Shown one piece after another: positions 1 to 20,059 of a stretch of DNA of 32,044 bases; position 1 is the first letter of the stretch, and every line of letters begins with the position of its first letter. The notes under the pieces are model-generated. The model had not been told where the DNA came from. It was given only the letters and a program-made list of their open reading frames with translations, and did not search any database. Made by a program: the position numbers and the translations under genes. The DNA comes from Oscillospiraceae bacterium. GTDB lineage: Bacteria > Bacillota > Clostridia > Oscillospirales > Oscillospiraceae. Location of the stretch: NCBI GenBank assembly GCA_017397835.1, contig JAFQHV010000023.1, positions 1-32,044 of the forward strand. Direction: 5' to 3'.

Positions 1-1329
1 GCTGCTCCCGCCCCCGCGGCCGCTCCCGCTCCTGCCGCCGCCCCCGCTGCTCCCACCGGCCCCGTTGCCGCCGCGGTCATCATGCCCAAGGCCGGCATCA
101 GCGTGGAGAGCTGCATCATCGGCTCCTGGCAGAAGAAAGTCGGCGACCAGATCAAGATCGGCGACATCCTCTTTACTTATGAAACCGACAAGGCCAACTT
201 CGAGTGCGAGTCCACTGCCGAGGGTGAGCTGCTGGAGATCTTCTTCGGTGACGGCGAAGAGGTGACCTGTCTGGAGAACGTCTGCGCCATTGGTAACAAG
301 GGCGACGACACCGCCAGCCTGCGTCCCGGCGCTGCCGCTGCCGCCCCCGTGGCTGTGGAGGCTGCTCCCGCCGCTGCCGCCGCTCCCGTGGCCGCTGCCG
401 CTCCTGTGGCTGCTGCCGTGGTCGGCGCCCCCGTTTCCCCCCGCGCCAAGAAGCTGGCCGAGCGCGCCGGCGTTGACGCCGCTCTGGCTTCCGGCACCGG
501 CCCCAACGGCCGCATCATCGAGCGCGATGTCCGCCGCCTGATGGAGGAGGGCGTTCCCGCCACCGCCGCTGTGGAGGCCGCTCCCGCTGCCGCCGCCGCT
601 CCTGTGGCTGCCGCCGCTGCCGCTGCTGCTCCCGAGGTGGAGTACGAGGACGTGAAGTTCTCCGGCATCCGCCGCGCCATCAGCAAGTCCATGAAGGAGT
701 CCCTGTCCGGCATGGCTCAGCTGACCCACAACTTCTCCTTCGATGCTTCCGCCATCATGGCCTACCGCAAGCTGCTCAAGGCCGCCGGCGACGACTATGC
801 TGGCATCACTCTGGGCGACATCATTCTGTACGCCGTGTCCCGCACCGTGCTGTCCTGCCCCGATCTGAACGCTCACATGCTGGATGACAACAACATCCGC
901 CTGTTCAAGCACGTTCACCTGGGCGTGGCCGTGGACACCCCCCGCGGCCTGATGGTCCCCACCATCTTCAACGCCGACCAGAAGAGCCTGCTGGAGATCT
1001 CCAAGGAGGTCAAGGAGCTGGCCGGTGCCTGCCGTACCGGCGCCATCAGCCCCGACAAGCTGACCGGTGCTTCCTTCACCGTGTCCAACCTGGGCGGCTT
1101 CGGCGTTGAGTCCTTTACCCCCGTTATCAATCCTCCCCAGACCGGCATCATCGGCGTGTGCACCACCGTGCAGCGTCCCCGCATGGGCGCCAACGGCATC
1201 GAGCTGTACCCCGCCATGGCTCTGTCCCTCACTTACGATCACCGCGCCGTGGACGGCGCTCCCGCTTCCCGCCTGATGATGGAGCTGTGCAAGAACCTGG
1301 AAAACTTCACCACCCTGCTGGCTAAGTAA
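1..1329 (+). CDS. 2-oxoacid dehydrogenase complex E2, dihydrolipoamide acyltransferase (5' partial)
   Basis: Core acyltransferase of a pyruvate/acetoin/branched-chain-type dehydrogenase complex; it moves the acyl group from lipoyl-lysine to CoA in the cytoplasm. The frame is open from base 1, so the ATG at 82 is internal. The first 25 or so codons are an Ala/Pro linker, which implies at least one more domain upstream, probably a second lipoyl domain. Then come a lipoyl domain with the ETDKA motif (lysine codon 190-192), Ala/Pro linkers, a peripheral subunit-binding domain (about 436-546), another linker, and the catalytic domain ending in DHRAVDG (catalytic His codon 1240-1242). It is followed 18 nt later by E3. 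The family is certain. The substrate is not: pyruvate, acetoin or branched-chain oxoacids are all possible. Confidence 0.93.
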   Translation, partial: AAPAPAAAPAPAAAPAAPTGPVAAAVIMPKAGISVESCIIGSWQKKVGDQIKIGDILFTYETDKANFECESTAEGELLEIFFGDGEEVTCLENVCAIGNKGDDTASLRPGAAAAAPVAVEAAPAAAAAPVAAAAPVAAAVVGAPVSPRAKKLAERAGVDAALASGTGPNGRIIERDVRRLMEEGVPATAAVEAAPAAAAAPVAAAAAAAAPEVEYEDVKFSGIRRAISKSMKESLSGMAQLTHNFSFDASAIMAYRKLLKAAGDDYAGITLGDIILYAVSRTVLSCPDLNAHMLDDNNIRLFKHVHLGVAVDTPRGLMVPTIFNADQKSLLEISKEVKELAGACRTGAISPDKLTGASFTVSNLGGFGVESFTPVINPPQTGIIGVCTTVQRPRMGANGIELYPAMALSLTYDHRAVDGAPASRLMMELCKNLENFTTLLAK

Positions 1330-1347
1330 CAAAGGAGGATTTGAAAC

Positions 1348-2715
1348 ATGGAACTGTTTGATCTGTTGGTCCTCGGCGGCGGCCCCGGCGGCTACCTGTG
1401 TGCCGAGCGTGCCGCTCAGGGCGGCATGAAGGTGTGCCTCTTTGAGAAGAAGGCTCTGGGCGGCACCTGCCTGAACGAGGGCTGCATTCCCACCAAGACC
1501 CTGCTGAACTCCGCCAAGATGTACCGCCACGCCACCGAGAGCGCCGACTTCGGCGTTACCGCCGAGAACGTCAAGTTCGATCACGCCAAGGTCGTGGCCC
1601 GCAAGAACAAGGTCGTCAAGACTCTGGTGGGCGGCGTCGGCGCCACCATGAAGGCGAACAAGGTCACCGTCATCACCGGTGACGCCGTCATCGCCGGCCG
1701 CGACGGCGAGGGCTTCGCCGTTGAGTGCAATGGCCAGCGCTACGTCGGCAAGAAGCTGACCATCGCCTCCGGCTCCGAGACCGTGGTGCCTCCCGTACCC
1801 GGCCTGAAGGAGGGTATCGCCTCCGGCTTCGTCACCACCAACCGCGAGGTGCTGGATCTGACCGAGCTGCCCAAGCAGATGGTCGCCATCGGCGGCGGCG
1901 TTATCGGCCTAGAGATGGCCTACTACTTCGCCAGCGTTGGCGTGCCCGTCACCGTCATCGAGATGATGCCCAAGATCGCCGGCGCCACCGACCCCGAGAT
2001 CTGCGCCCTGCTGCAGGAAGCCTGCGAGAAGCGCGGCATGGTCTTCAAGCTGTCCTGCAAGGTGCTGGAGATCAAGTCCGGCTCCGTGGTCTATGAGGAG
2101 AACGGCGAGAAGAAAGAGATCGCCTGCGACAAGGTGCTGCTGGCCGCCGGCCGCAAGCCCGCCACCGCCGGCATCGGCCTGGAGACTCTGGGCATCGAGA
2201 TGGACCGCGCCGCCATCATCACCGACCGCCATATGTGCACCAACGTCTCCGGCGTGTACGCCGTGGGCGACTGCAATGCCAAGATCATGCTGGCTCACAC
2301 CGCCTACCGCGAGGCTGAGGTGGCTGTCAACCACATGCTGGGCAAGAAGGACGAGATGCGTTACGACGTCATCCCCTCCGTTATCTACACCGATCCCGAG
2401 GTTGCCAGTGTCGGTCTGTCCCTGGACGCCGCCAAGGCCCGCGGCATGAACGCCAAGGAAGTCAAGCTGCCCATGATGTACGCCGGCCGCTACGTGGCCG
2501 AGGCCGAGAATCCCAACGGCTTCATCAAGCTGGTCGTAGATCAGGACCGCAACCGTCTGGTGGGCTGCCACATGGTCGGCAGCTATGCCTCCGAGATCAT
2601 CATGACCGCCACCATGATGGTGGATACCGAGCTGACCCCCACCCGTCTGCAGAAGCTGGTCTTCCCCCATCCCACCGTGGCCGAAATCATCCGTGAAGCT
2701 ATTTTCCACATTTAA
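1348..2715 (+). CDS. lpdA: Dihydrolipoyl dehydrogenase (E3)
   Basis: FAD enzyme that reoxidises the dihydrolipoyl arm of E2 and reduces NAD+. The 455-aa protein has the usual family length. It has an N-terminal FAD-binding glycine motif (GGGPGG, residues 10-15), the redox-active disulfide CLNEGC (Cys41 and Cys46), a second nucleotide-binding glycine cluster (AIGGGVIGLEMA, around residue 180), and the C-terminal HPTVAE motif (His441, Glu446) that completes the neighbouring subunit's active site in the dimer. The start follows AAAGGAGG. The gene lies 18 nt after E2 and 18 nt before E1, so the three are co-transcribed. No lipoyl domain is fused to this E3, unlike in some Gram-positive complexes. 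Confidence 0.96.
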   Translation: MELFDLLVLGGGPGGYLCAERAAQGGMKVCLFEKKALGGTCLNEGCIPTKTLLNSAKMYRHATESADFGVTAENVKFDHAKVVARKNKVVKTLVGGVGATMKANKVTVITGDAVIAGRDGEGFAVECNGQRYVGKKLTIASGSETVVPPVPGLKEGIASGFVTTNREVLDLTELPKQMVAIGGGVIGLEMAYYFASVGVPVTVIEMMPKIAGATDPEICALLQEACEKRGMVFKLSCKVLEIKSGSVVYEENGEKKEIACDKVLLAAGRKPATAGIGLETLGIEMDRAAIITDRHMCTNVSGVYAVGDCNAKIMLAHTAYREAEVAVNHMLGKKDEMRYDVIPSVIYTDPEVASVGLSLDAAKARGMNAKEVKLPMMYAGRYVAEAENPNGFIKLVVDQDRNRLVGCHMVGSYASEIIMTATMMVDTELTPTRLQKLVFPHPTVAEIIREAIFHI

Positions 2716-2733
2716 TTAAGGAGGAGAATTACA

Positions 2734-5208
2734 ATGCCTAACAGTCTGTATGTCGATCCCGTAAAGGTGCGCGCCGCCGGCGAAGTCACCTTTGAGAGCA
2801 TCCCCGTCAACCAGTACAACAAGTCCATCAAGGACGAGCTGAAGGAGAAGAACTTCACCAAGGCCGACCTGATCCGCATCTTCCGCGACATGACCGTCCT
2901 GCGTGAGTTCGAGACCATGCTGAACCTGATCAAGACTCAGGGCGCTTACAACGGCGTGGAGCATACCTATCCCGGCCCTGCCCACCTGTCCATCGGCCAG
3001 GAGGCCGCCTGCGTGGGTCAGTCCTACCTGCTGGACGAGAACGACTTTGCCTTCGGCTCTCACCGCTCTCACTCCGAGATCCTGGCCAAGGCCCTGTCCA
3101 CCATCCAGAAGATGAGCGACGAGGACCTGATGAACGTCATGGAGAACTTCCTGGACGGCAAGTGCCTGCGCGCCACCCAGAAGCTGGGCGAGACCAAGGA
3201 CGTCAAGGAGCTGGCCATCCGCTTCATCCTGTACGGTACCCTGAGCGAGATCTTCGCCCGTGAGACCGGCTTCCACATGGGCATGGGCGGCTCCATGCAC
3301 GCCTTCTTCCTGCCCTTCGGCATCTACCCCAACAACGCCATCGTGGGCGGCTCCGCCACCATCTCCACCGGTTCCGCTCTGTACAAGAAGCTGAACAACA
3401 AGAAGGGTATCTGCGTTTGCAACATCGGTGACGCTTCCATGGCCCGCGGCCCTGTGTGGGAGGCTATGAACTTCGCCGCCATGGATCAGTACAAGACCAT
3501 TTGGGAGTCCCACAACGACGGCATGCCCATCCTGTTCAACACCTTCAACAACTCCTACGGCATGGGCGACCAGACCCGCGGCGAAACCATGGGTCAGGGC
3601 TGCATGAGCCGTATCGGTTCCGGTATCAGCCCCACTCAGTTCCATGCTGAGACTGTGGACGGCTTCAATCCTCTGGCTGTGATCGACGCCATGCGCCGCA
3701 AGCTGGAGCTGCTGCGCAACGGCCAGGGCCCCGTCGCTCTGGAGACTCTGACCTACCGCTTCTGCGGCCACTCCGTCTCCGACCAGAACGCCTACCGCAC
3801 CAAGGAAGAGATGGACGACTGGAAGAACTACGATCCTCTGACCACCTATCCCGCCGCCCTGATCGAGGCCGGCGTGTGCAAGCAGGCCGACATCGACGCC
3901 ATCCTGGAGGAGACCCGCGAGCGCATGACCCTGATCTGCAAGTACGCTGCCGATCCCGAGTTCAGCCCCTACTGCGACTTCAACAAGGATCCCGCCGTTG
4001 TGGAGCGCCTGATGTTCTCCAACCAGAAGGTTGAGAAGATGGACGACCGCGAGCCCGAGTTCCTGGTTCCCAAGGAGGAGGCCGAGGGCTACAAGAAGAT
4101 CAAGAGCAAGAGCCGCAGCCCCATCGGTCCCGACGGCAAGCCCGTTTCCAAGATGAAGCTGTACAACCTGCGTGACGGTCTGTCCGAGGTCATCTGGGAC
4201 CGCTTCTACGAGGATCCCACCCTGGTCGCCTACGGCGAGGACTGCCGTGACTGGGGCGGCGCCTTCGCTGTCTACCGCGGCATGATGGACGCTCTGCCCC
4301 ACAGCCGTCTGTTCAACTCCCCCCTGGCCGAGGCTTCCATCGTCGGTACCGCCGTGGGTTACGCCCTGTCCGGCGGCCGCGCTCTGGTGGAGCTGATGTA
4401 CGCTGACTTCATCGGCTGCGCCGGTGACGAGATCTTCAACCAGATGTCCAAGTGGCAGTCCATGTCCGCCGGCATCCTGAAGATGCCCATGGTCCTGCGC
4501 GTGTCCGTCGGTTCCAAGTACGGCGCCCAGCACAGCCAGGACTGGACCGCTCTGTGCGCTCACATCCCCGGTCTGAAGGTCTGCTTCCCCGCCACCCCCT
4601 GGGAGGCCAAGGGTCTGATGGAGTCCGCCCTGAAGGGCACCGACCCCGTCGTCTTCTTCGAGAGCCAGCGCATCTACGACGTGGGCGAGCAGTTCCACGA
4701 GGGCGGCGTGCCTGCCGAGCGCTATGAGATCGAGTTCGGCGACACCAACAAGGTCCGCGACGGTAAGGACATCACCATCCTGACCATCGGCGCCACCCTG
4801 TACCGCGCCATGGACGCTGCCAAGGAGCTGAGCGAGAAGTACGGCATGGAGGCCGACGTCATCAACATCCACTCCCTGGTGCCCCTGGACTACACCAAGA
4901 TCGTGGAGTCCGTCCGCAAGACCGGCCGTGTGGTTCTGGCTTCCGACGCCTGCGCCCGTGGCTCCTTCCTGAACGATGTCGCCGCCAAGATCACCGATCT
5001 GTGCTTCGACGATCTGGACGCTCCTCCCGTGGTTGTGGGCGCCCGCAACTGGATCACTCCTCCCTACGAGTTCGACGAGTTCTTCTTCCCCCAGGCCAGC
5101 TGGATCCTGGACGCTATCCACGAGAAGATCGTTCCCCTGGCCGGCTACACCCTCAAGAACGGTGTGTCCGAGGCCGAGGCTATCCGTCGCTCCAAGGCCG
5201 GCGTGTAA
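2734..5208 (+). CDS. Thiamine-diphosphate dehydrogenase E1, alpha and beta subunits fused
   Basis: E1 decarboxylates the 2-oxoacid (or cleaves acetoin) with thiamine diphosphate and acylates the E2 lipoyl group. In most alpha/beta-type complexes E1 is two proteins; here one 824-aa chain holds both. Residues about 40-450 are alpha-like, with the cofactor motif starting GDA at 232-234 and ending NN at 272-273; this gap is about 10 residues longer than in the usual motif. Residues about 470-824 are beta-like (AYGEDC, LPHSRLFNSPLAEASIVG, and a C-terminal transketolase-type domain). AAGGAGGAG precedes the ATG. It is the last gene of the operon, whereas E1 is commonly first. Substrate is unknown; a pyruvate or acetoin dehydrogenase is the simplest reading. 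Confidence 0.92.
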   Translation: MPNSLYVDPVKVRAAGEVTFESIPVNQYNKSIKDELKEKNFTKADLIRIFRDMTVLREFETMLNLIKTQGAYNGVEHTYPGPAHLSIGQEAACVGQSYLLDENDFAFGSHRSHSEILAKALSTIQKMSDEDLMNVMENFLDGKCLRATQKLGETKDVKELAIRFILYGTLSEIFARETGFHMGMGGSMHAFFLPFGIYPNNAIVGGSATISTGSALYKKLNNKKGICVCNIGDASMARGPVWEAMNFAAMDQYKTIWESHNDGMPILFNTFNNSYGMGDQTRGETMGQGCMSRIGSGISPTQFHAETVDGFNPLAVIDAMRRKLELLRNGQGPVALETLTYRFCGHSVSDQNAYRTKEEMDDWKNYDPLTTYPAALIEAGVCKQADIDAILEETRERMTLICKYAADPEFSPYCDFNKDPAVVERLMFSNQKVEKMDDREPEFLVPKEEAEGYKKIKSKSRSPIGPDGKPVSKMKLYNLRDGLSEVIWDRFYEDPTLVAYGEDCRDWGGAFAVYRGMMDALPHSRLFNSPLAEASIVGTAVGYALSGGRALVELMYADFIGCAGDEIFNQMSKWQSMSAGILKMPMVLRVSVGSKYGAQHSQDWTALCAHIPGLKVCFPATPWEAKGLMESALKGTDPVVFFESQRIYDVGEQFHEGGVPAERYEIEFGDTNKVRDGKDITILTIGATLYRAMDAAKELSEKYGMEADVINIHSLVPLDYTKIVESVRKTGRVVLASDACARGSFLNDVAAKITDLCFDDLDAPPVVVGARNWITPPYEFDEFFFPQASWILDAIHEKIVPLAGYTLKNGVSEAEAIRRSKAGV

Positions 5209-6572: not shown

Positions 6573-7703
<1,131 letters not shown>

Positions 7704-8687: not shown

Positions 8688-9353
8688 ATGGGAGGCATTT
8701 TCTCTTACGACTCCAAGCTGATGCAGATGCTGGACACTCTGGGCAACACCATCATGCTCACCGCTCTGTTCATTTTGTGCTGCATCCCCATCATCACCAT
8801 CGGCGCGGCCTTTACCGCCCTGTTCGCCGCCTGCCGGGCCCAGACCCGGGGCAAGGGCTGCTTCCGGGCTTACTTCAAGGCATTTAAGGACAATTTCCTG
8901 CGGGCCACCCTGCTGTGGGTCCTGTTTGCCGCCTTGATTTATCTGTGCATCGGTGCCGCCATCAACCTCTACCAAATGGACGGCAGTCTGGCCGTGTTCA
9001 TCATGGCCGTGGTGGGCGGCAGCCTGCTGCTGACCCTGCTGACCATGTGCCTGCTGTTCTACTCCCGGTTCGAATGCACCTTCCGCCAGCTGATCAAAAA
9101 CGGTGTGGTCATGGTCCTGTCCTTTCCCGTCCGCAGCCTGCTCATCGCCCTGCTGTCCTGGCTGCCGGTGCTGGGCTTTTTCGCCTATCCCGACTACGTT
9201 GCCGCCCTTGGTATCGTGTGGGTGACGCTGTACCACGGCACCGCCGGGGCCGTCTGCGTGTGGTTTATGAAGCGCCCCTTCGCCCGTTTGGCAGAAAAGC
9301 TGCTGGGCGTGGTGGAGAGCGACGTCATCGACGAGCCGGCCCACGGCCACTGA
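8688..9353 (+). CDS. DUF624 / YesL-family membrane protein
   Basis: A 221-aa integral membrane protein of the DUF624 (YesL) family, whose genes are typically found beside carbohydrate ABC transporters and glycan-degradation genes; the molecular role is not established. Five hydrophobic segments are visible (about 21-48, 73-95, 101-125, 139-165, 170-195). The N-terminus carries the family-like pattern of a short amphipathic stretch, then the helix ending IPIITIGAAFTALFAACR, and a basic loop with a GCFRAYFKAFK segment. The ATG at 8688 has GAGG 8 nt upstream; an in-frame GTG at 8682 is less likely. It has its own promoter and a strong terminator, and lies back-to-back with the unknown membrane protein gene. 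Confidence 0.85.
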   Translation: MGGIFSYDSKLMQMLDTLGNTIMLTALFILCCIPIITIGAAFTALFAACRAQTRGKGCFRAYFKAFKDNFLRATLLWVLFAALIYLCIGAAINLYQMDGSLAVFIMAVVGGSLLLTLLTMCLLFYSRFECTFRQLIKNGVVMVLSFPVRSLLIALLSWLPVLGFFAYPDYVAALGIVWVTLYHGTAGAVCVWFMKRPFARLAEKLLGVVESDVIDEPAHGH

Positions 9354-9364
9354 TCCCTACATAC

Positions 9365-9399
9365 AAAAACGCCTGCACCCAACGGGGTGCAGGCGTTTT
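9365..9399. terminator. Bidirectional terminator
   Basis: A GC-rich stem (left arm 9365-9380, right arm 9385-9399, loop AACG) with A residues on the left and T residues on the right. It separates the DUF624 gene from the convergent M24 gene and ends both units. Confidence 0.92.
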
Positions 9400-9404
9400 C
9401 CTTT

Positions 9405-10577
9405 TTAGCAGTCGATCTCGAACAGCTTACGGGGATAGTTGGTCAGGTTCTCCGCGCCGCCCTTCTTCACGCACACCACGTCCTCAATGCGCAGGCCGGT
9501 CTCGGTCTTGGCAGAGCCAAGGAAGATGTCCGCGCAGAACGTCATGTTCTCCTCCAGCACAAAATCGGCGCTGGTCTCGATCCAGGGAGCCTCGCCCTCC
9601 ATGGTGCCGTTGCCGTGGAAGGGCCCGTATAGCAGCCAGTCTCCGTAACCCATGGCGGTCACGTTGTCGATGTGGGCCTGCGCCACGTCACAGGCACGGG
9701 CACCCACCTGCAGGGATGCGATGGCATCTTCCTGCGCCTTGTAGCCCACCTCGATGAGCTCACGCTGCTCGGGGGTGGCCTTACCGAAGACCACGGGGCG
9801 GCCGATGCTGGAGGCGTAGCCATCCACGCGGGCACCGATCTGCAGGAAGGTCATATCGCCCTTCTCGATCTGCTTGTTCCGGGGGCGGCTGATGGCTTGA
9901 TTGGAACCCTTGCCGGTCAGCACCCACAGGGGGTAGGACTCCCGTTCGGCGCCCAGCTCGTGCATCTTACCCAGGGCCAGGCCCACCACCTGCTGCTCCG
10001 TCATGCCGACCTTGATGTTGGCCAGCACGTAGTCGAAGGTCTCGCGGGTGATTTTGGCGGCGGCACGCATACAGGCCAGCTCGTTCTCCGTCTTGCGCAT
10101 ACGCAGAGCGTTGACGATGTCGTCGGCTTTCTCCACCTTCACGTCCAGCGATCCGCTCAGCGCCTCGTACACGCCGATGGTCATCAGGGGCAGGCCGGCC
10201 ACGCCGAAGCGGCAGATGGGCTTATCGCCCCATACCTCGGCAAACACGGAGGGAAAGGTGTCCAGTTTCTTGCCGGGATACTCCGGCTCGGAGGACTCAC
10301 GAAAGGCCTTCAGCAGACGGATGTCGGGGATCTTGGAACGGTCGGCGGCGTAGGTGTAGCTCTCCGGGCCGATGAGCAGCAGCGGCTTACCCTCCCGGGG
10401 GATCAGCACACCGGCCGTCTCAAAAGAGGGCCAGTAGTTGGAAAAATAGCGCACGTACTGGGGCTCGGCCTCGTTGCCGTAGGCCAGCAGCAGGTCGTAG
10501 CCCTGTTCGGCCATGGCGGCCTGAACGTTTTTCACTCTCAGGTCAAATTCTTCCTGAGGAATAAAAGGCAAATTCAT
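9405..10577 (-). CDS. M24-family (pita-bread fold) protein, creatinase-like, metal ligands lost
   Basis: A 390-aa cytoplasmic protein with the two-domain build of creatinase, prolidase and aminopeptidase P: an N-terminal domain (about 1-155) and a C-terminal pita-bread domain (about 160-390). The two aspartates that normally bind metal in M24 peptidases are replaced: the first position is Gln246 (LQIGAR) and the second Ser257 (YASSIGR). His321 (FHGNG) and Glu365 (GLRIED) remain, and the next acidic ligand is Asp350 instead of Glu. Creatinase, a metal-free hydrolase, has the same kind of loss. So this is more likely a C-N hydrolase or lyase-like enzyme than a dipeptidase. It starts 3 nt after the phosphotriesterase-like gene and is the last gene of the operon. 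Confidence 0.87.
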   Translation of the reverse strand: MNLPFIPQEEFDLRVKNVQAAMAEQGYDLLLAYGNEAEPQYVRYFSNYWPSFETAGVLIPREGKPLLLIGPESYTYAADRSKIPDIRLLKAFRESSEPEYPGKKLDTFPSVFAEVWGDKPICRFGVAGLPLMTIGVYEALSGSLDVKVEKADDIVNALRMRKTENELACMRAAAKITRETFDYVLANIKVGMTEQQVVGLALGKMHELGAERESYPLWVLTGKGSNQAISRPRNKQIEKGDMTFLQIGARVDGYASSIGRPVVFGKATPEQRELIEVGYKAQEDAIASLQVGARACDVAQAHIDNVTAMGYGDWLLYGPFHGNGTMEGEAPWIETSADFVLEENMTFCADIFLGSAKTETGLRIEDVVCVKKGGAENLTNYPRKLFEIDC

Positions 10578-10580
10578 AAC

Positions 10581-11618
10581 TTACTCCTTTCCGCACAGCC
10601 ACCGGGCGGGGTTTTCCACCAGCAGCATATGGATCTGTTCGTCGGTAATCCCATATTCCTCCATCATGGGGACGATGTTGGTCAGTACGTGGTCATAGCC
10701 CCAGCCGCCGTAGGTGTGCAGCAGGTTCTTCAGGCACACATCGCAGGACAGCAGGATCTGCTCGCCGTACCCGGCGTCCAGCAGCTTTTTCAGCAGGCTC
10801 ACCCGGTCGGTGTCGTGGACGAACAGGCCGTAGCCGGAGTTGCGCACCTCCCGGCGAGTGTAGTACTCCTTGCCGAAGTTGTCAAACTCCACGTACACGC
10901 CCTTTGCAAGCAGGGCGTAGATGTACTCCTCCCGGTTCTCCACGTCGATGTGGCTGATGCAGATTTTTTCGGGAGCTACACCCGCCTTCAGCAGAATATC
11001 GGAGGCCTCCAGACCGTTGGTAGTCCAGGGGTTGATGTGCACGTTGATGGCCGCTCCGGTGTCCATGCTGGCCAAGGCGGCGGCACGCAGCACCCGCCGT
11101 TCCTTATCGTCAAAGATCTCGCTGATGCCGATCTCGCCGATATAGCCGGCACGCACACCGTCCACACCTTCCTCCAGTTCCTTCACCATCAAGTCCGCGA
11201 TCTGCCGCTCGGTCATGGCGGCCAGCTCCTTGGGGTGGGTGGAACCCACGTAGAAACCGGTGCCCATGATGATGTTCAGGCCGGTCTCCTCGGAAATGCG
11301 CTTGAGGGCGGCGGGGTCACGGCCGATGCCGTCCAGCGAGGCATCCACCACCGTGTTGCCTCCGGCCTTTTTGAAGTAGCCCAGCTCCTTGACAGCCAGC
11401 GCTTCGCTGTCCAGCAGGAGGTTGTCCTTCAGAGCGTAGCAGTCCCGGCTAAGGATGCCGAGGTTCCACATCTCCACCTTTTGGGTGGCGGGGTCATCCA
11501 CACCGTCCACGGGCAGCGCCTGGTAAAAGGCGGTCAGGTCCAGCAGCACGTGCTCGTGGCTGGTAACGACGCCCAGTTCCTCCCGGCCGATGGGGCCGGT
11601 CACAGCAGTCGCATTCAT
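10581..11618 (-). CDS. Phosphotriesterase-family amidohydrolase (lactonase-like)
   Basis: A 345-aa TIM-barrel metal hydrolase of the phosphotriesterase family; bacterial members are mostly lactonases or esterases of unknown natural substrate. The metal site is complete: HEH (His21, His23), the bridging position Glu162 (GEIG, Glu in place of the carboxylated Lys of true phosphotriesterases), His194 (NVHINPW), His223 (SHIDV) and Asp293 (SCDVC). AAGGAGG precedes the ATG. It lies 12 nt after the 268-aa unknown gene and 3 nt before the M24 gene, so all three are made together. A ring-opening step (lactone or cyclic amide) followed by C-N cleavage by the M24 protein would fit the pair, but this is inference. 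Confidence 0.9.
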   Translation of the reverse strand: MNATAVTGPIGREELGVVTSHEHVLLDLTAFYQALPVDGVDDPATQKVEMWNLGILSRDCYALKDNLLLDSEALAVKELGYFKKAGGNTVVDASLDGIGRDPAALKRISEETGLNIIMGTGFYVGSTHPKELAAMTERQIADLMVKELEEGVDGVRAGYIGEIGISEIFDDKERRVLRAAALASMDTGAAINVHINPWTTNGLEASDILLKAGVAPEKICISHIDVENREEYIYALLAKGVYVEFDNFGKEYYTRREVRNSGYGLFVHDTDRVSLLKKLLDAGYGEQILLSCDVCLKNLLHTYGGWGYDHVLTNIVPMMEEYGITDEQIHMLLVENPARWLCGKE

Positions 11619-11630
11619 GTCGCTTCCTCC

Positions 11631-12437
11631 TTACAGGGGCAGATCGCCGTTTTCCTGCATCCAGCGAACGGCCACGTCATAGGCTTCGTAGTCCAGGTCG
11701 GCCATGGTATTGGTGTGCAGCACCACGCCGTCGATCTCACCGGCAAGCAGCTTCTCCTTGGCCCAGTTCAGCTGCCACTCCACCGCCTCGCCGGTGGCCT
11801 GCTTCTGTTCGCCGAAGTTCCACAGGTACACGCCCACCATGCGCCGGGTGTTGGGAGTCATCTTTTTGAAGATCTCGAACTTCTCGGGGATGAGAGGCAC
11901 GTCCTTCTCACACCAGGTCCACATGATGATGCCGTCAAAGGCATCCATATAGGGCTGGAACGCCTCGTCCTCCTCCCGGTCCTTGCCGAACTGGAAGGTG
12001 TACAGCACCATCCATGTGTCCATGGGGCGCACACCGTTTTCGTGGAACTTCTCCCGCATCTTCAGCAGGTTTTCCAGCGGCACGTTCTTATAGCGGTCGC
12101 CGGACTTAAAGTCGTCAAACACCGCGCAGCCGATATTGGGGAAGTCCTTGGCATCCTCCAGAAAAACGTCGATGGCACCGGTATCTCCGGCAGCGGCGAT
12201 GCTGGGGTTGCCAAACTCCCAGCCCACTTTATTCAGGGTGGTGAAGGACTTGTTGTACTGTCTGCGGTTGACCCCTTCGTGCCTATGCTCACCGTCGGGC
12301 ACCATAAATACGTTCCGCACACCCAGATAGAGGCAACCCTCCATAGGGGTCATGCGGGAGATGCCGTCGTTGCCGTACATATTGTTGTAGTATCCTTCGG
12401 GATGGCCCCACAGCCAGAATTTATCACGCAAAACCAT
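11631..12437 (-). CDS. Unrecognised 268-aa protein, first gene of the hydrolase operon
   Basis: I do not recognise this family with certainty. It has no signal peptide or membrane helix and is rich in Trp, Tyr, Phe and Asp. Short hydrophobic strands end in acidic or polar residues (AVFDDFKSGD, GIIMWTWCEKD, VGVYLWNFG, DGVVLHTNT), a pattern typical of a (beta/alpha)8 barrel of the glycoside-hydrolase kind. I chose the ATG at 12437 because AAGGAGG sits 7 nt upstream; the ATG at 12443 is too close to that site, and starts further up lie in the control region. It leads an operon with the phosphotriesterase-like and M24 genes, opposite an AraC regulator, so a catabolic or binding role for the same substrate is likely. 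Confidence 0.8.
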   Translation of the reverse strand: MVLRDKFWLWGHPEGYYNNMYGNDGISRMTPMEGCLYLGVRNVFMVPDGEHRHEGVNRRQYNKSFTTLNKVGWEFGNPSIAAAGDTGAIDVFLEDAKDFPNIGCAVFDDFKSGDRYKNVPLENLLKMREKFHENGVRPMDTWMVLYTFQFGKDREEDEAFQPYMDAFDGIIMWTWCEKDVPLIPEKFEIFKKMTPNTRRMVGVYLWNFGEQKQATGEAVEWQLNWAKEKLLAGEIDGVVLHTNTMADLDYEAYDVAVRWMQENGDLPL

Positions 12438-12481
12438 ATCCATTCCTCCTTGCATTTTACGAAACACCATGGTACTATGCA

Positions 12482-12522
12482 CTTATGCATCATAAGTTTA
12501 TCATATCTATCGGTTACAACAA
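12482..12522 (-). promoter_or_regulatory. Control region of the hydrolase operon: promoter and inverted repeat
   Basis: On the minus strand a possible promoter has -35 TTGTTG (12517-12522), a 16-bp spacer and -10 TAAACT (12495-12500). Just downstream, CTTATG (12482-12487) and CATAAG (12491-12496) form a 6-bp inverted repeat around 3 nt at the expected transcription start. The weak boxes fit a promoter that needs the divergent AraC regulator. The promoter call is tentative; the inverted repeat is seen directly. Confidence 0.45.
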
Positions 12523-12556
12523 GCGATAAATGGGTATCAAATATGGAGGTTTGCGT

Positions 12557-13354
12557 ATGTCTGTGGACAATCAATCTCTTTGCGAATTGGCAAATCACCT
12601 GCATCTGACCATACTGACCTACCGCCGGGCGGCGGTGGACACCTCTTGGTGCGGCGAGGTTTGCGGCGCCCCATTCTCTTATCTCTACTACATCGTGGAC
12701 GGCACCGCCGAGATCGAAACCGACGAGGGTGTCTTGACCCTGACCGCCGGCAACTGGTATCTGCTGCCCTCAGGCTGTTCGTTCCGCTACCGGTGCGACA
12801 AGCAAATGGATCACGTCTACTTCCACCTGACGCTCAGCGGTGTGGAGCAGCTGGACCTGTTGGGGCAGTGCGAACGGCCGCTGCGCCTCAGCTTCGAGGG
12901 CGTACCGGAGCTGGTATTCGACTGTTTGAGCGGAAAGGGAGATGTGTTCAGTGCCCTTTCCGTCAAAAATTTTGTCAGCCGGGTGCTGCTTTCCGCCCTG
13001 AGCGAGCACCAAATCACCCTGTATCCCCACAAGCTGTCCCCCGTCATTTTAGCCGCCGTCGAGTTCATCAACAACAACCTGTCCGCCCGGCTGAAAACCA
13101 CCGAGGTGGCCGAGTATTGTTTCGTGTCCAAAAGCACCTTGACCAAGCATTTCCAAAAAGAGCTTTCCGTGTCCGTGCAGCAGTATCTCTACGACATCCT
13201 GCTGTCGGAAGCAAGCCGTATCCTGCTGAAGGAAAATCTGTCCGTGCTGGAGGTCAGCGAGCGGCTGGGGTTCTCCGACCAGTTTTACTTCGCTCGGCGC
13301 TTTAAGGCCAAGTACGGCGTACCGCCCAGCAAATACAAAAAAATCTTTTCCTGA
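12557..13354 (+). CDS. AraC-family transcriptional regulator
   Basis: A 265-aa regulator with a cupin-like N-terminal sensing domain (about 30-110, including GTAEIETDEGVLTLTAGNW) and a C-terminal double helix-turn-helix domain (about 165-265). The latter shows TTEVAEYCFVSKSTLTKHF for the first helix-turn-helix and LSVLEVSERLGFSDQFYFARRFK for the second, then the family ending GVPPSKYKK. The ATG at 12557 has GGAGG 7 nt upstream; the in-frame ATG at 12530 would place that site inside the gene. It is divergent from the hydrolase operon with a 119-bp shared control region, so it most likely controls that operon in response to its substrate. Confidence 0.92.
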   Translation: MSVDNQSLCELANHLHLTILTYRRAAVDTSWCGEVCGAPFSYLYYIVDGTAEIETDEGVLTLTAGNWYLLPSGCSFRYRCDKQMDHVYFHLTLSGVEQLDLLGQCERPLRLSFEGVPELVFDCLSGKGDVFSALSVKNFVSRVLLSALSEHQITLYPHKLSPVILAAVEFINNNLSARLKTTEVAEYCFVSKSTLTKHFQKELSVSVQQYLYDILLSEASRILLKENLSVLEVSERLGFSDQFYFARRFKAKYGVPPSKYKKIFS

Positions 13355-17318: not shown

Positions 17319-17347
17319 GGCGCACCCGCAGGTGCGCCCTGATTTTT
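17310..17347 (-). terminator. Terminator of the sulfatase gene
   Basis: 17-nt arms (17310-17326 and 17331-17347) pair with one mismatch around a 4-nt loop and end in a T run on the minus strand. The 5' arm overlaps the sulfatase stop codon; the 3' arm contains the -35 box of the next gene. Confidence 0.85.
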
Positions 17348-18917
17348 ACTTCTGCTCAAAATACACGCCGTAGTGGGCCATGATGGGTCGGGTCTTGCAG
17401 AACTCGTTAAAGTCCCATTCCAGTCCCGCCTGCTTCAGCCGCTCGATCTGCGCCATGGAGCCGATGGGATAGGCGATATCGAAGTTGTCCAGGAAGTTCG
17501 GGTCTTTTTTGACAATGCCCGCCTGAATGTCGTTGGTCAGGTCGTGGGCCTCGATGCGTATGCCCTTGGCCAGCACCATGAAGTCCACCACGTCCATCAG
17601 GAACTTGCGCTCCACCGCAGCGTATTCCGGCTTGCCGCCCAGGTCGTTCATCATCAGAGGGTCGGCGATGCGGTCATAGAGGCAGCACTTACCGGTGAAG
17701 GGGTAGTAAGTAAAGGTGTACTGCTTATCCACCAGAGTCTTGCAGCTGTCGCAGAACTCACTCATGTTCACCTCGCGCTCCGGGACAGACCCCTCAGCCA
17801 GACCGATGAGGGAGCGGGACACACCGAAGCGGCGGTCATCCCCCGCCGCATCCAGCACGGTTGCACCGATGTCCAGATTGCCGCACAGGGCATCACAGTG
17901 GGTGCCGGCAGGCAGCCGAGGGTGGTTGGCCACAATCAGGGGGACAAACAGCTGGCTGGTGTAGGGCCAGGGGCCCTTGGTGGCCAGATTGTAGTCGTTG
18001 TCGCAGCTGCCGTGGTCGGAGGTAAAGATGATAGTGGTGTTCTCGTACACGCCGTTGCGCTTCAGGGCGTCCACCAATCGGCCCACCAGACGGTCCACCT
18101 CTACAATGACCTCGGCGTAGGCCTGCCGCTCCCGCATACGCTCAGCATCCAGGCAGTCCAGATTCTTCAGCACCTCCGGGGGATTGAGGAAGGCGCAGCG
18201 CACCGCCTCCACAGAGGGGGTGTTCTCGCTCAGGGGCTTGTGGATGATGGGGGGAATCTTGTCCGGGTCTACGGTGCCGGACACCTCCTTGGGAGGCAGA
18301 TGGGGGGAGTGGGGGGACCAGAAGCCACAGTACAGGAAGAAGGGCGCACCCTCCTTGTCCGGGGCAGCACCATTGGGCGCCTTGCCGGTGGCGACGTAGC
18401 TGTCCAAAAACTCCTCGGCCCGGTCGGTGGTCCAACGGTCAAAATACTCCTCCTCGGTGTACTTGAACTGCTTTCCGTCACGGCACCAGCCCCAGCCGTT
18501 GGTCACTTCCGGGTGCTTTTCCCGCATCCACAGGATGTACTCGTTGTCCTTTTCCTCGCTGAACCGGCGGACATACTTCATGTGCATGTCGTTGTCGGGG
18601 TAAAGCTCGATGCTGCCCATGCCGGCGGTCATATAGCCCTGCTCGTGGAGCCGGTCGGTAAACAGAGGCAGGTCCTTGCCCTCCACCTCGTTGGTCCAGT
18701 AGCCGTGGCCGGACACAAACTCGCCTGTGGCGATGGCGGCTCGGGCAGGGGCACACACGGTGGAGGCGGTGATGGCGTTATCAAAGACAACACCGTGTTC
18801 CGCCAAAGCGTCAATGTTGGGGGTGGGGACAAAGTCGGCGCCGTAGGCGCCAAGGAAATCGGGGCGCAGCTCGTCACACAGGATCATCAGCACGTTGCGC
18901 TGGTTTTGGTTGCTCAT
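17346..18917 (-). CDS. Cytoplasmic type I sulfatase-family protein, with own maturase
   Basis: A 523-aa alkaline-phosphatase-superfamily enzyme with the sulfatase signature CAPAR (Cys55, Pro57, Arg59); the Cys is converted to formylglycine to become the nucleophile. Metal-site residues seen include Asp15 in LCDELRPD and Asp301-His302 in TSDHG, and SPHSPH (201-206) fits the PHxP-type motif. The usual GKWHLG motif is not recognisable: the equivalent place reads AGMGSIELYP (98-107), so key Lys/His contacts may be lost or moved. There is no signal peptide, so it acts in the cytoplasm. It overlaps the upstream maturase gene by 4 nt (ATGA), meaning coupled translation. Substrate is unknown; a sulfate ester or a phosphonate/phosphate ester are possible. 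Confidence 0.88.
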   Translation of the reverse strand: MSNQNQRNVLMILCDELRPDFLGAYGADFVPTPNIDALAEHGVVFDNAITASTVCAPARAAIATGEFVSGHGYWTNEVEGKDLPLFTDRLHEQGYMTAGMGSIELYPDNDMHMKYVRRFSEEKDNEYILWMREKHPEVTNGWGWCRDGKQFKYTEEEYFDRWTTDRAEEFLDSYVATGKAPNGAAPDKEGAPFFLYCGFWSPHSPHLPPKEVSGTVDPDKIPPIIHKPLSENTPSVEAVRCAFLNPPEVLKNLDCLDAERMRERQAYAEVIVEVDRLVGRLVDALKRNGVYENTTIIFTSDHGSCDNDYNLATKGPWPYTSQLFVPLIVANHPRLPAGTHCDALCGNLDIGATVLDAAGDDRRFGVSRSLIGLAEGSVPEREVNMSEFCDSCKTLVDKQYTFTYYPFTGKCCLYDRIADPLMMNDLGGKPEYAAVERKFLMDVVDFMVLAKGIRIEAHDLTNDIQAGIVKKDPNFLDNFDIAYPIGSMAQIERLKQAGLEWDFNEFCKTRPIMAHYGVYFEQK

Positions 18918-20059
18918 TTCTTGGTTCCTCCTTCGGTTTGCGCGGCCCCTTTCAGCCGCTGGCTGTATTTACGGGCCAGCTCGGCTAACCCTTCGCCGCA
19001 CCGGTCCAGAAAATCACGATACCCGCAGTACACGCTGTTGTCTGCCGCGTAGCAGATCTCCCGCCGCATCCGGGGGCAGTTGCCGGCACAGAACGTATCG
19101 TAAGGGCACGCCTCGCAGAAGGCGGAGCGGTCCTGGGGCCGGTCAATAAACTCCTGCACGCCGGGCGCGGACAGCACTTCAGAAACCGTCTCCTCGGTCA
19201 GATTGCCCAATCGGTATTGGTCGGTGCAGTAGAAATCGCAGGGGTAGGCGCTGCCGTCCGCCTCCACCACCAGCTGGGGGCGGCACACGCCGTCCATGCC
19301 GCAGCCGGTAGGTCGGCCCAGCACCAGAAGATTGACCACGTCGTCAAAGAACTTCACGCTGCGCCACTTGCCCCGGCTCATCTCCTCCCGCCACAGATCA
19401 AACAGGGTGGTATAGAAATCCGCAAACCGCTTGGGGGTCAGCGCAAAGGGGCTTGTCTCCCCCTCCATCTCACCCAGACAGGGGGTGAACTGCACAAAGC
19501 GCACATCCAGCTTCTGCAGCTGCTGCCAAACCTGCCGGGGATGGCGAGCCACTGCATTGGTCAGGGTACACAGCACGTTGTACTCCACAGCGTGCTTATC
19601 CAGCAGCTCGATCGCGCGGGTCACCTGCTTCCACGTTCCGCGGCCCTGCCGGTCCTGCCGCACGTCGTCGTGGCAGTCCCGCAGCAGGTCAAGGGACACA
19701 CCCACAAGGAAGTTGTGTTCCTTCAGGAATTTGCACCAATCCTCGTCCAGCAGCGTTCCGTTGGTCTGCAGGGCGTAAGTCACCTGCACATCCTGCCACC
19801 CGTCGGCGATGGACACAAAGGTGCGGTAGAAATCCAGTCCCGCCAGCGTGGGTTCCCCGCCCTGAAAGACGAAGTGGACCTTGTCCCCCGGCTGCAGCTC
19901 CGCTGCTGCGTTGGCAAGGATCGCTCCCATGGTCTCCGGCTTCATCATGCCGAAGCACGGTGTGGCACGGTTTTGCGCCACGTCGGTATAAAAACAGTAT
20001 TTACAGCGCAGATTGCACAGAGAAGATGCCGGTTTCAGCATGATACTGACCTGTTTCAT
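18914..20059 (-). CDS. Anaerobic sulfatase-maturating radical SAM enzyme
   Basis: It oxidises the sulfatase active-site cysteine (or serine) to formylglycine without oxygen. The 381-aa protein has the radical SAM cluster CNLRCKYC (Cys15, Cys19, Cys22), the FQGGEPTLAGLDFY segment of the SAM site, and a C-terminal SPASM domain with many cysteines (GCGMDGVCRPQ, CDFYC, CEACPYDTFCAGNCP) for two further iron-sulfur clusters. Its substrate is clearly the sulfatase encoded just downstream with a 4-nt overlap. One oddity is that the segment usually read as SLDGP then HD is SLDLLRDCHDDVR here. AAGGGGGG precedes the ATG. It also fits the anaerobic life style of the host. Confidence 0.92.
   Translation of the reverse strand: MKQVSIMLKPASSLCNLRCKYCFYTDVAQNRATPCFGMMKPETMGAILANAAAELQPGDKVHFVFQGGEPTLAGLDFYRTFVSIADGWQDVQVTYALQTNGTLLDEDWCKFLKEHNFLVGVSLDLLRDCHDDVRQDRQGRGTWKQVTRAIELLDKHAVEYNVLCTLTNAVARHPRQVWQQLQKLDVRFVQFTPCLGEMEGETSPFALTPKRFADFYTTLFDLWREEMSRGKWRSVKFFDDVVNLLVLGRPTGCGMDGVCRPQLVVEADGSAYPCDFYCTDQYRLGNLTEETVSEVLSAPGVQEFIDRPQDRSAFCEACPYDTFCAGNCPRMRREICYAADNSVYCGYRDFLDRCGEGLAELARKYSQRLKGAAQTEGGTKK

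Follow-up and report, generated by a model that had tools for sequence, protein, structure and literature searches.

The window, i.e., the entire 32,044-nucleotide stretch of Oscillospiraceae DNA analyzed here (on contig G000:C19 of its 1.84-Mb source assembly, designated G000), carries three minus-strand genes that constitute one real, conserved unit, positioned opposite a gene for an AraC-family regulator and closed by a terminator. This operon encodes a 268-aa protein (11631..12437), a 345-aa hydrolase of the phosphotriesterase (PTE) family (10581..11618) and a 390-aa protein of the M24/creatinase fold without the full dinuclear metal site (9405..10577), while the 265-aa regulator is encoded on the plus strand (12557..13354). 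The original prediction had described such an arrangement, and the open reading frames are indeed found at these positions, separated within the operon by 12 nt (268-aa/PTE) and 3 nt (PTE/M24). All four genes, when compared between the window and the homologous loci L004 and L005, display dN/dS ratios of 0.04–0.21; they are thus under purifying selection and are therefore real coding genes. Labels of the L, G and c series denote homologous loci, sampled genomes and protein clusters of neighboring genes, respectively, and the genes of the loci were called with a composition-based gene caller.

Linkage and distribution of the three genes

A linkage test that starts from the PTE-like protein is fairer than a count that starts from the 268-aa protein. 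Among 391 genomes sampled at class level, 20 possess a relative of the PTE-like protein at E<=1e-30, and seven of these, besides G000, encode one that is 54–80% identical. A trio-type M24 gene (68–82% identity) is located within 1 kb in all seven, adjoining the PTE gene in five and separated from it by a 268-aa family gene in two (G321 and G251). The 268-aa family is represented in the cluster of four of the seven (G195, G321, G251 and G287), and not in that of G201, G181 and G278. Of the 32 PTE loci collected, 18 score above 400 bits; M24 is encoded within three genes of PTE in 17 of these (not in L007) and the 268-aa family is present in 15, a count that is biased because 13 of the 15 entered the collection through a search with the 268-aa sequence or profile, and the window accounts for one more. 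A more distant pair of PTE (42–45%) and M24 (29–31%) proteins is encoded by L117, L118 and L121.

Co-occurrence was also counted across the class, as the original prediction had proposed: 13 of the 391 genomes possess both the 268-aa family and PTE (16 and 20 genomes, respectively) versus 0.8 expected (hypergeometric 6e-17, with the window's own genome included and relatedness uncorrected). Furthermore, protein distances across 13 loci (14 had all three genes; L021 was dropped as a copy of L022) correlate at 0.94 between PTE and M24, and at 0.72–0.73 between the 268-aa family and either partner. Gene order varies between loci, and the partnership of the three is an old one.

When loci were fetched via the 268-aa protein, PTE and M24 were found alongside in nine of the 28 (L004, L005, L008, L009, L014, L015, L020, L021 and L022), and in L007 PTE was present with no M24 before the contig end. 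As L021 and L022 are identical and belong to one metagenome-assembled genome (MAG), L020 and L022 are 97–99.7% alike and L014 and L015 98–99% alike, the nine represent approximately six independent cases. The trio is thus not confined to a single strain. The 28 loci, distributed over 27 MAGs and showing 46–94% identity, were obtained by scanning a single genome for each species and are a lower bound, since the scan relies on short peptide patterns. All but one of these MAGs (26/27) belong by name to the class Clostridia, the remaining one being an ‘uncultured bacterium’ (L030), and record titles mention goat, sheep and roe-deer hindgut as animal sources.

The 268-aa family is patchily distributed: within the window's own taxonomic family it occurs in two of 150 genomes, the window's genome included, two genomes of the same genus are devoid of it, and some of the 16 positive genomes in the class-level sample return several matches (six in G287 and five in G406). 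No relative was found at E<=1 in plasmid records. For the PTE-like protein, a sample of 299 genomes from the phylum yielded three matches at E<=1e-40 besides its own, with 36–38% identity over ~270 residues, and Rhizobium plasmids carry relatives (~39%) situated in sugar-ABC/ribokinase loci; no M24 gene is annotated in the two Rhizobium plasmid PTE regions examined, for which the gene table is incomplete.

Operon boundaries and regulation

The 268-aa gene starts at an ATG preceded by AAGGAGG. Downstream of the M24 gene, an intrinsic-terminator-like hairpin of 15 pairs with a T-rich tail (9366..9399) separates the operon from a convergent DUF624 gene. It is the only terminator-like site detected; the site count is in itself no evidence, because shuffled sequences averaged 3.7 sites of any strength, and the evidence consists of the stem length and position of the hairpin. 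The regulator matches HTH_18 (E 2.4e-18, 66.7 versus 33.6 bits), its C-terminal helix-turn-helix thus scoring above the cut-off, and its start at 12557 is more likely than the ATG at 12530, which would give 274 aa. An alignment of the AraC-operon intergenic region from six loci reveals CATAAGT-x-CATA in the window, L004, L014 and L015. The operator-like element at 12476..12488 (TATGCACTTATGC on the plus strand) is altered in L004, L014 and L015, variant in L018 and mostly deleted in L005; CATAAGT-x-CATA is a plausible, if weakly supported, putative operator.

As had been predicted, no transporter is encoded within the unit, whose products appear to be cytoplasmic as judged by eye from their N-termini only. 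The adjoining DUF624 gene (8688-9353, plus strand) and a gene for a MalK/MsmK-type ABC ATPase 1.7 kb from the operon (6573-7703, minus strand) are of types typical of sugar ABC importers.

Further away in the window, a radical-SAM/SPASM gene, by eye resembling that of an anaerobic sulfatase-maturating enzyme, overlaps by 4 nt with a sulfatase gene (PF00884, E 3.6e-38; both in 17346-20059, minus strand), and this pair, 4 kb from the trio, represents a possible link to sulfated glycans. At the other end (82-5208, plus strand), E2-like and lipoamide-dehydrogenase-like genes (by eye) are followed by a gene for a fused, 824-aa E1 dehydrogenase with E1_dh and transketolase domains.

The three proteins

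The PTE-like protein matches PF02126 over virtually the entire profile (positions 4-297 of 298; E 5.6e-70, 236.6 versus a cut-off of 22.4 bits). Enzymes of this family coordinate a dinuclear metal center through an HxH motif, a bridging Glu or Lys, two further His residues and an Asp, and all six ligands are present (H21, H23, E162, H194, H223 and D293). The first two are retained in 31 of the 32 PTE loci, L117 showing a gap that results from the chosen start, and the other four in 32/32, as are K297 and E251; K250 is retained in 31/32. The nearest solved relative is 9efa, a ‘phosphotriesterase-related protein’ (E 1.7e-55, 118 of 334 aligned residues identical). A characterized orthologue was not found for any of the genes, as the NCBIfam equivalogs that were matched all scored far below their cut-offs: for the PTE-like protein, assignment to the PHP or phospho-furanose lactonase equivalogs was rejected on this ground (NF007373, 162 versus 486 bits; NF045706, 91 versus 630 bits), and for the M24-like protein, identity with the ectoine hydrolase DoeA (TIGR02993, 63.1 bits versus 613).

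In several loci a PTE relative belongs to a second type of cluster, to which no name was assigned: in L115, L119, L120 and L122 it is followed by two amidohydrolase-like genes (c14 and c15, by eye), and L115 and L122 additionally encode an SGNH-type esterase (c83) and an isomerase-like protein (c30).

The M24-like protein matches PF00557 (E 1.2e-37, 130 versus 23 bits) and PF01321 (E 5.4e-9). The loss of metal ligands that had been predicted from the window is borne out: the five-ligand set D, D, H, E, E reads Q246, S257, H321, D350 and E365, i.e., two of the five ligands are lost and a third is changed from Glu to Asp. All 18 trio-type sequences have Q, S (16) or T (2), H, D and E at these positions, and both Asp ligands are likewise lost in the three clade-B sequences, whereas two conventional paralogues retain the complete set. 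Because the ligands are lost across the trio-type sequences, it is a fair inference that the protein is metal-free. Arg231, H321 and E365 are retained in all 21 metal-poor sequences, and Arg231 is present in neither conventional paralogue.

The first gene's family had been described as one that could not be named, and this holds for the libraries searched: Pfam and NCBIfam returned no match at E<=1, and nothing credible was found in the PDB, where the single sequence gave chance-level matches only (best E 1.1), its profile A1 gave nothing at E<=10, the broader profile A3 matched short stretches at a chance-like level (best E 0.031, over 75 residues in a chain of 96) and the L064 copy gave no match. 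D168, G202 and G237 do not vary across a diverse set of 29 members, W8, E33, N42, D108, W142, Y146, W173 and N243 are at least 90% conserved, and D108 and D109 are retained in 27 and 26 members, respectively. Eight strand-helix-like segments, read by eye from the alignment, suggest that the protein may adopt a barrel fold.

Strand motifs of the protein looked similar to those of GH84/GH85 (clan GH-K of the glycoside hydrolases, GH), a relation that the tests did not support. Alignment of the family by hhalign with 29 GH84, 5 GH85 and 6 GH20 domains gave probabilities of 0.0–3.5%, like unrelated controls; for a distant subset of the family, the values were 3.5% for GH85, 2.5% for M24, 2.3% for amidohydrolase c15 and 1.4% for GH84. 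When the 268-aa profile was compared with these 29 GH84 domains by HMMER with all filters off, the best E was 0.014 (5.6 bits). The Pfam GH85 model was matched by one of the 29 members (L064 7537-8319, residues 142-216; E 6.1e-4, 19.8 versus a cut-off of 22.2 bits), and the GH85 and GH84 models retrieved no 268-aa gene from 17 genomes, a search whose first-look filter may lose weak matches. As the profile similarity is not significant, the relation is treated as unproven.

Some loci contain two to four tandem copies of the 268-aa gene, e.g., four diverged copies in L069 (2270-5005, minus strand) and three in L007 (1791-4199, plus strand), which suggests paralogues of differing specificity or a hetero-oligomer. 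In L072 (2288-14419), the two halves of the contig mirror each other, with the 268-aa gene, c298 and c8 inverted and the two 268-aa proteins identical, which points either to an extensive inverted repeat or to a misassembly.

Genomic context and candidate functions

Part of the genome context points to a carbohydrate rather than to creatinine- or hydantoin-type substrates. Within three genes of PTE, the 32 loci encode ASRT (PF07100, assigned on L008) in seven cases, GH3 in three, a GH20b-domain protein in three (L104, L123 and L124; Pfam on L124) and isomerase-like c30 in one, counts that cover PTE loci only; amidohydrolase-like c14 is encoded in four. These clusters were labelled mostly by Pfam on one representative, and the NagZ, NagA, MFS and UxaB labels were assigned by eye. 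De Souza et al. 2009 (PMC2739507) have argued that ASRT is a sugar binder and that its gene accompanies those for sugar isomerases, aldolases and kinases. GH4 adjoins PTE in L114, a CBM/SLH protein adjoins the trio in L070, a ROK kinase is encoded in L117, genes for L-rhamnose isomerase (RhaA) and a class II aldolase are transcribed divergently from the trio in L015, as they are in the nearly identical L014 (99% alike), and phosphotransferase system and WbsX-type proteins are encoded near 268-aa genes without the trio in L006 and L019.

Based on these data, we tentatively favor, at a little under an even chance, the view that gut Clostridia possess here an accessory catabolic operon, inducible and under AraC control, for a carbohydrate-derived compound such as a sugar-derived lactone or N-acyl compound. 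A ligand would induce the operon through the AraC regulator; the PTE-like enzyme would, as its family suggests, attack a sugar-derived intermediate hydrolytically, either at a lactone or at an N-acyl group; the M24-like enzyme would make a metal-free hydrolytic cut, comparable to the cuts that creatinase and ectoine hydrolase make in other substrates, with the conserved Arg231 as a possible anion contact; and the 268-aa protein may process or bind a cytoplasmic glycan or sugar intermediate, in a glycosidase-like, isomerase-like or binding capacity. Several observations weigh against this proposal. Neither PTE nor a trio-type M24 accompanies the 268-aa gene in 18 of its 28 loci (several being cut by contig ends), and the 268-aa protein therefore also works outside the trio; conversely, the PTE-M24 loci L110-L112 have no 268-aa gene. 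Only six of the 18 closest PTE loci (L007, L008, L014, L015, L070 and L110) have ASRT, GH3, GH20b, c30, CBM/SLH or RhaA encoded no more than five genes away, and none of these families is found that close in the window itself. Neighbors of 268-aa genes also include non-sugar functions, i.e., Dus and redox genes (L011/L027), an amino-acid kinase (L024) and M20 and PHP proteins (L013). Finally, no activity is known to us for the PTE-like, the M24-like or the 268-aa protein.

Twelve of the 18 closest PTE loci, which show none of the counted sugar genes within five genes, would suit a nitrogen-compound pathway of the kind outlined in the original prediction. In such a pathway, the PTE-like enzyme opens a cyclic amide or lactone, the creatinase-like M24 protein performs a C-N cleavage like those by which ectoine or creatine is degraded, and the sugar neighbors are incidental. 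M24 proteins acting on such compounds do exist: DoeA/EutD opens the ectoine ring (PMC5924519), and creatinase itself is matched (1chm, E 4.6e-6). PTER, the namesake of the nearest solved PTE relative, is an N-acyl hydrolase (PMC11374699). The ASRT, GH3, GH20b, isomerase and RhaA neighbors in other loci and the DoeA model score (63 versus a cut-off of 613) speak against this pathway, which we consider unlikely. A narrower sugar-based reading, salvage of amino-sugar or muropeptide-like fragments, with the PTE-like enzyme removing an N-acyl group or opening an amino-sugar lactone and the M24-like enzyme trimming an amide, would account for the GH20b domains beside PTE, for the ROK kinase of L117 and a C-terminus in that locus that by eye resembles NagA, for an M14_N domain close to the 268-aa gene in L073 and for the GH3-cluster proteins, eight of eight of which contain KH(F/Y/W)P followed by (D/N)(S/A/G)H, a stretch that looks NagZ-like. 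As no more than 3/32 loci have GH3 within three genes of PTE, and rhamnose genes (L014/L015) and a uronate-type dehydrogenase (by eye, near L112) are also encountered, salvage of this kind is unlikely.

It is also conceivable, if quite improbable, that the M24-like and/or 268-aa proteins are non-enzymes, serving either in metabolite binding or as a scaffold for the PTE-like enzyme: the M24 metal ligands are lost, M24 members that are not peptidases exist (PMC3888471), and ASRT, a proposed standalone sugar sensor, is encoded beside PTE in some loci. The retention of H321, E365 and Arg231 in 21/21 metal-poor sequences and the low dN/dS of both genes argue against this possibility, though neither is proof of catalysis. 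A bolder and improbable extension of the carbohydrate proposal holds that the 268-aa proteins would form a new family of cytoplasmic glycoside hydrolases, built as a small (beta/alpha)8 barrel and carrying at strand 4 an Asp-Asp pair (D108 and D109) as in O-GlcNAcase-type enzymes, and that the trio would process a decorated amino-sugar or uronate by a new pathway, combining this glycosidase with a metal-dependent PTE-type deacylase or lactonase and a metal-free M24 hydrolase. Should the protein prove to be a new glycosidase family, the finding would be more than a new catabolic operon.

A literature search for the trio or its pathway found no description, although this search was thin and most subscription papers were outside its scope. 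What is presented here is thus a catabolic operon of an otherwise familiar kind, in which known enzyme families form a conserved partnership not found described, together with an undescribed 268-aa family that is outside the libraries searched yet recurrent across Clostridia MAGs, partly beside glycan-degrading genes. The partnering of PTE and M24 families with altered active sites offers a tangible starting point in the search for a new substrate. Once known, this substrate would allow the loci to be annotated and could extend the M24 fold to a non-peptide, metal-free function.

The known systems closest in context are the ASRT-linked sugar operons, in which ASRT stands beside isomerase/aldolase-type genes; here, ASRT lies within three genes of PTE in 7/32 loci, the window unit, unlike those operons, has no ASRT, and the words phosphotriesterase and creatinase are absent from the main text of De Souza et al. 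2009 (PMC2739507). With hydrolases of the PTER/COG1735 type (9efa, 3k2g and 3rhg), the PTE-like protein shares full-length similarity and the six metal-ligand positions. Mouse PTER, however, has R204, R233 and H300 at its substrate, modelled at N-acetyltaurine (PMC11374699), and these positions, transferred to 9efa numbering with an invariable shift of 7 (consistent with E169, R204, R233 and H300), correspond to P197, V226 and C295 in the window protein; PTER-like taurine chemistry is rejected on the basis of these replacements. Creatinase (1chm) and ectoine hydrolase DoeA/EutD (6twk) are M24 proteins that perform non-peptide hydrolysis, the former being metal-free, and the window protein is far from both in sequence (E 4.6e-6 and 5e-7, respectively). 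With M24B prolidase and aminopeptidase P (1pv9 and 2zsg) it shares the family and a catalytic-domain alignment (E 6.1e-26), and differs from them in having Q246 and S257 for two Asp ligands and Asp for one Glu.

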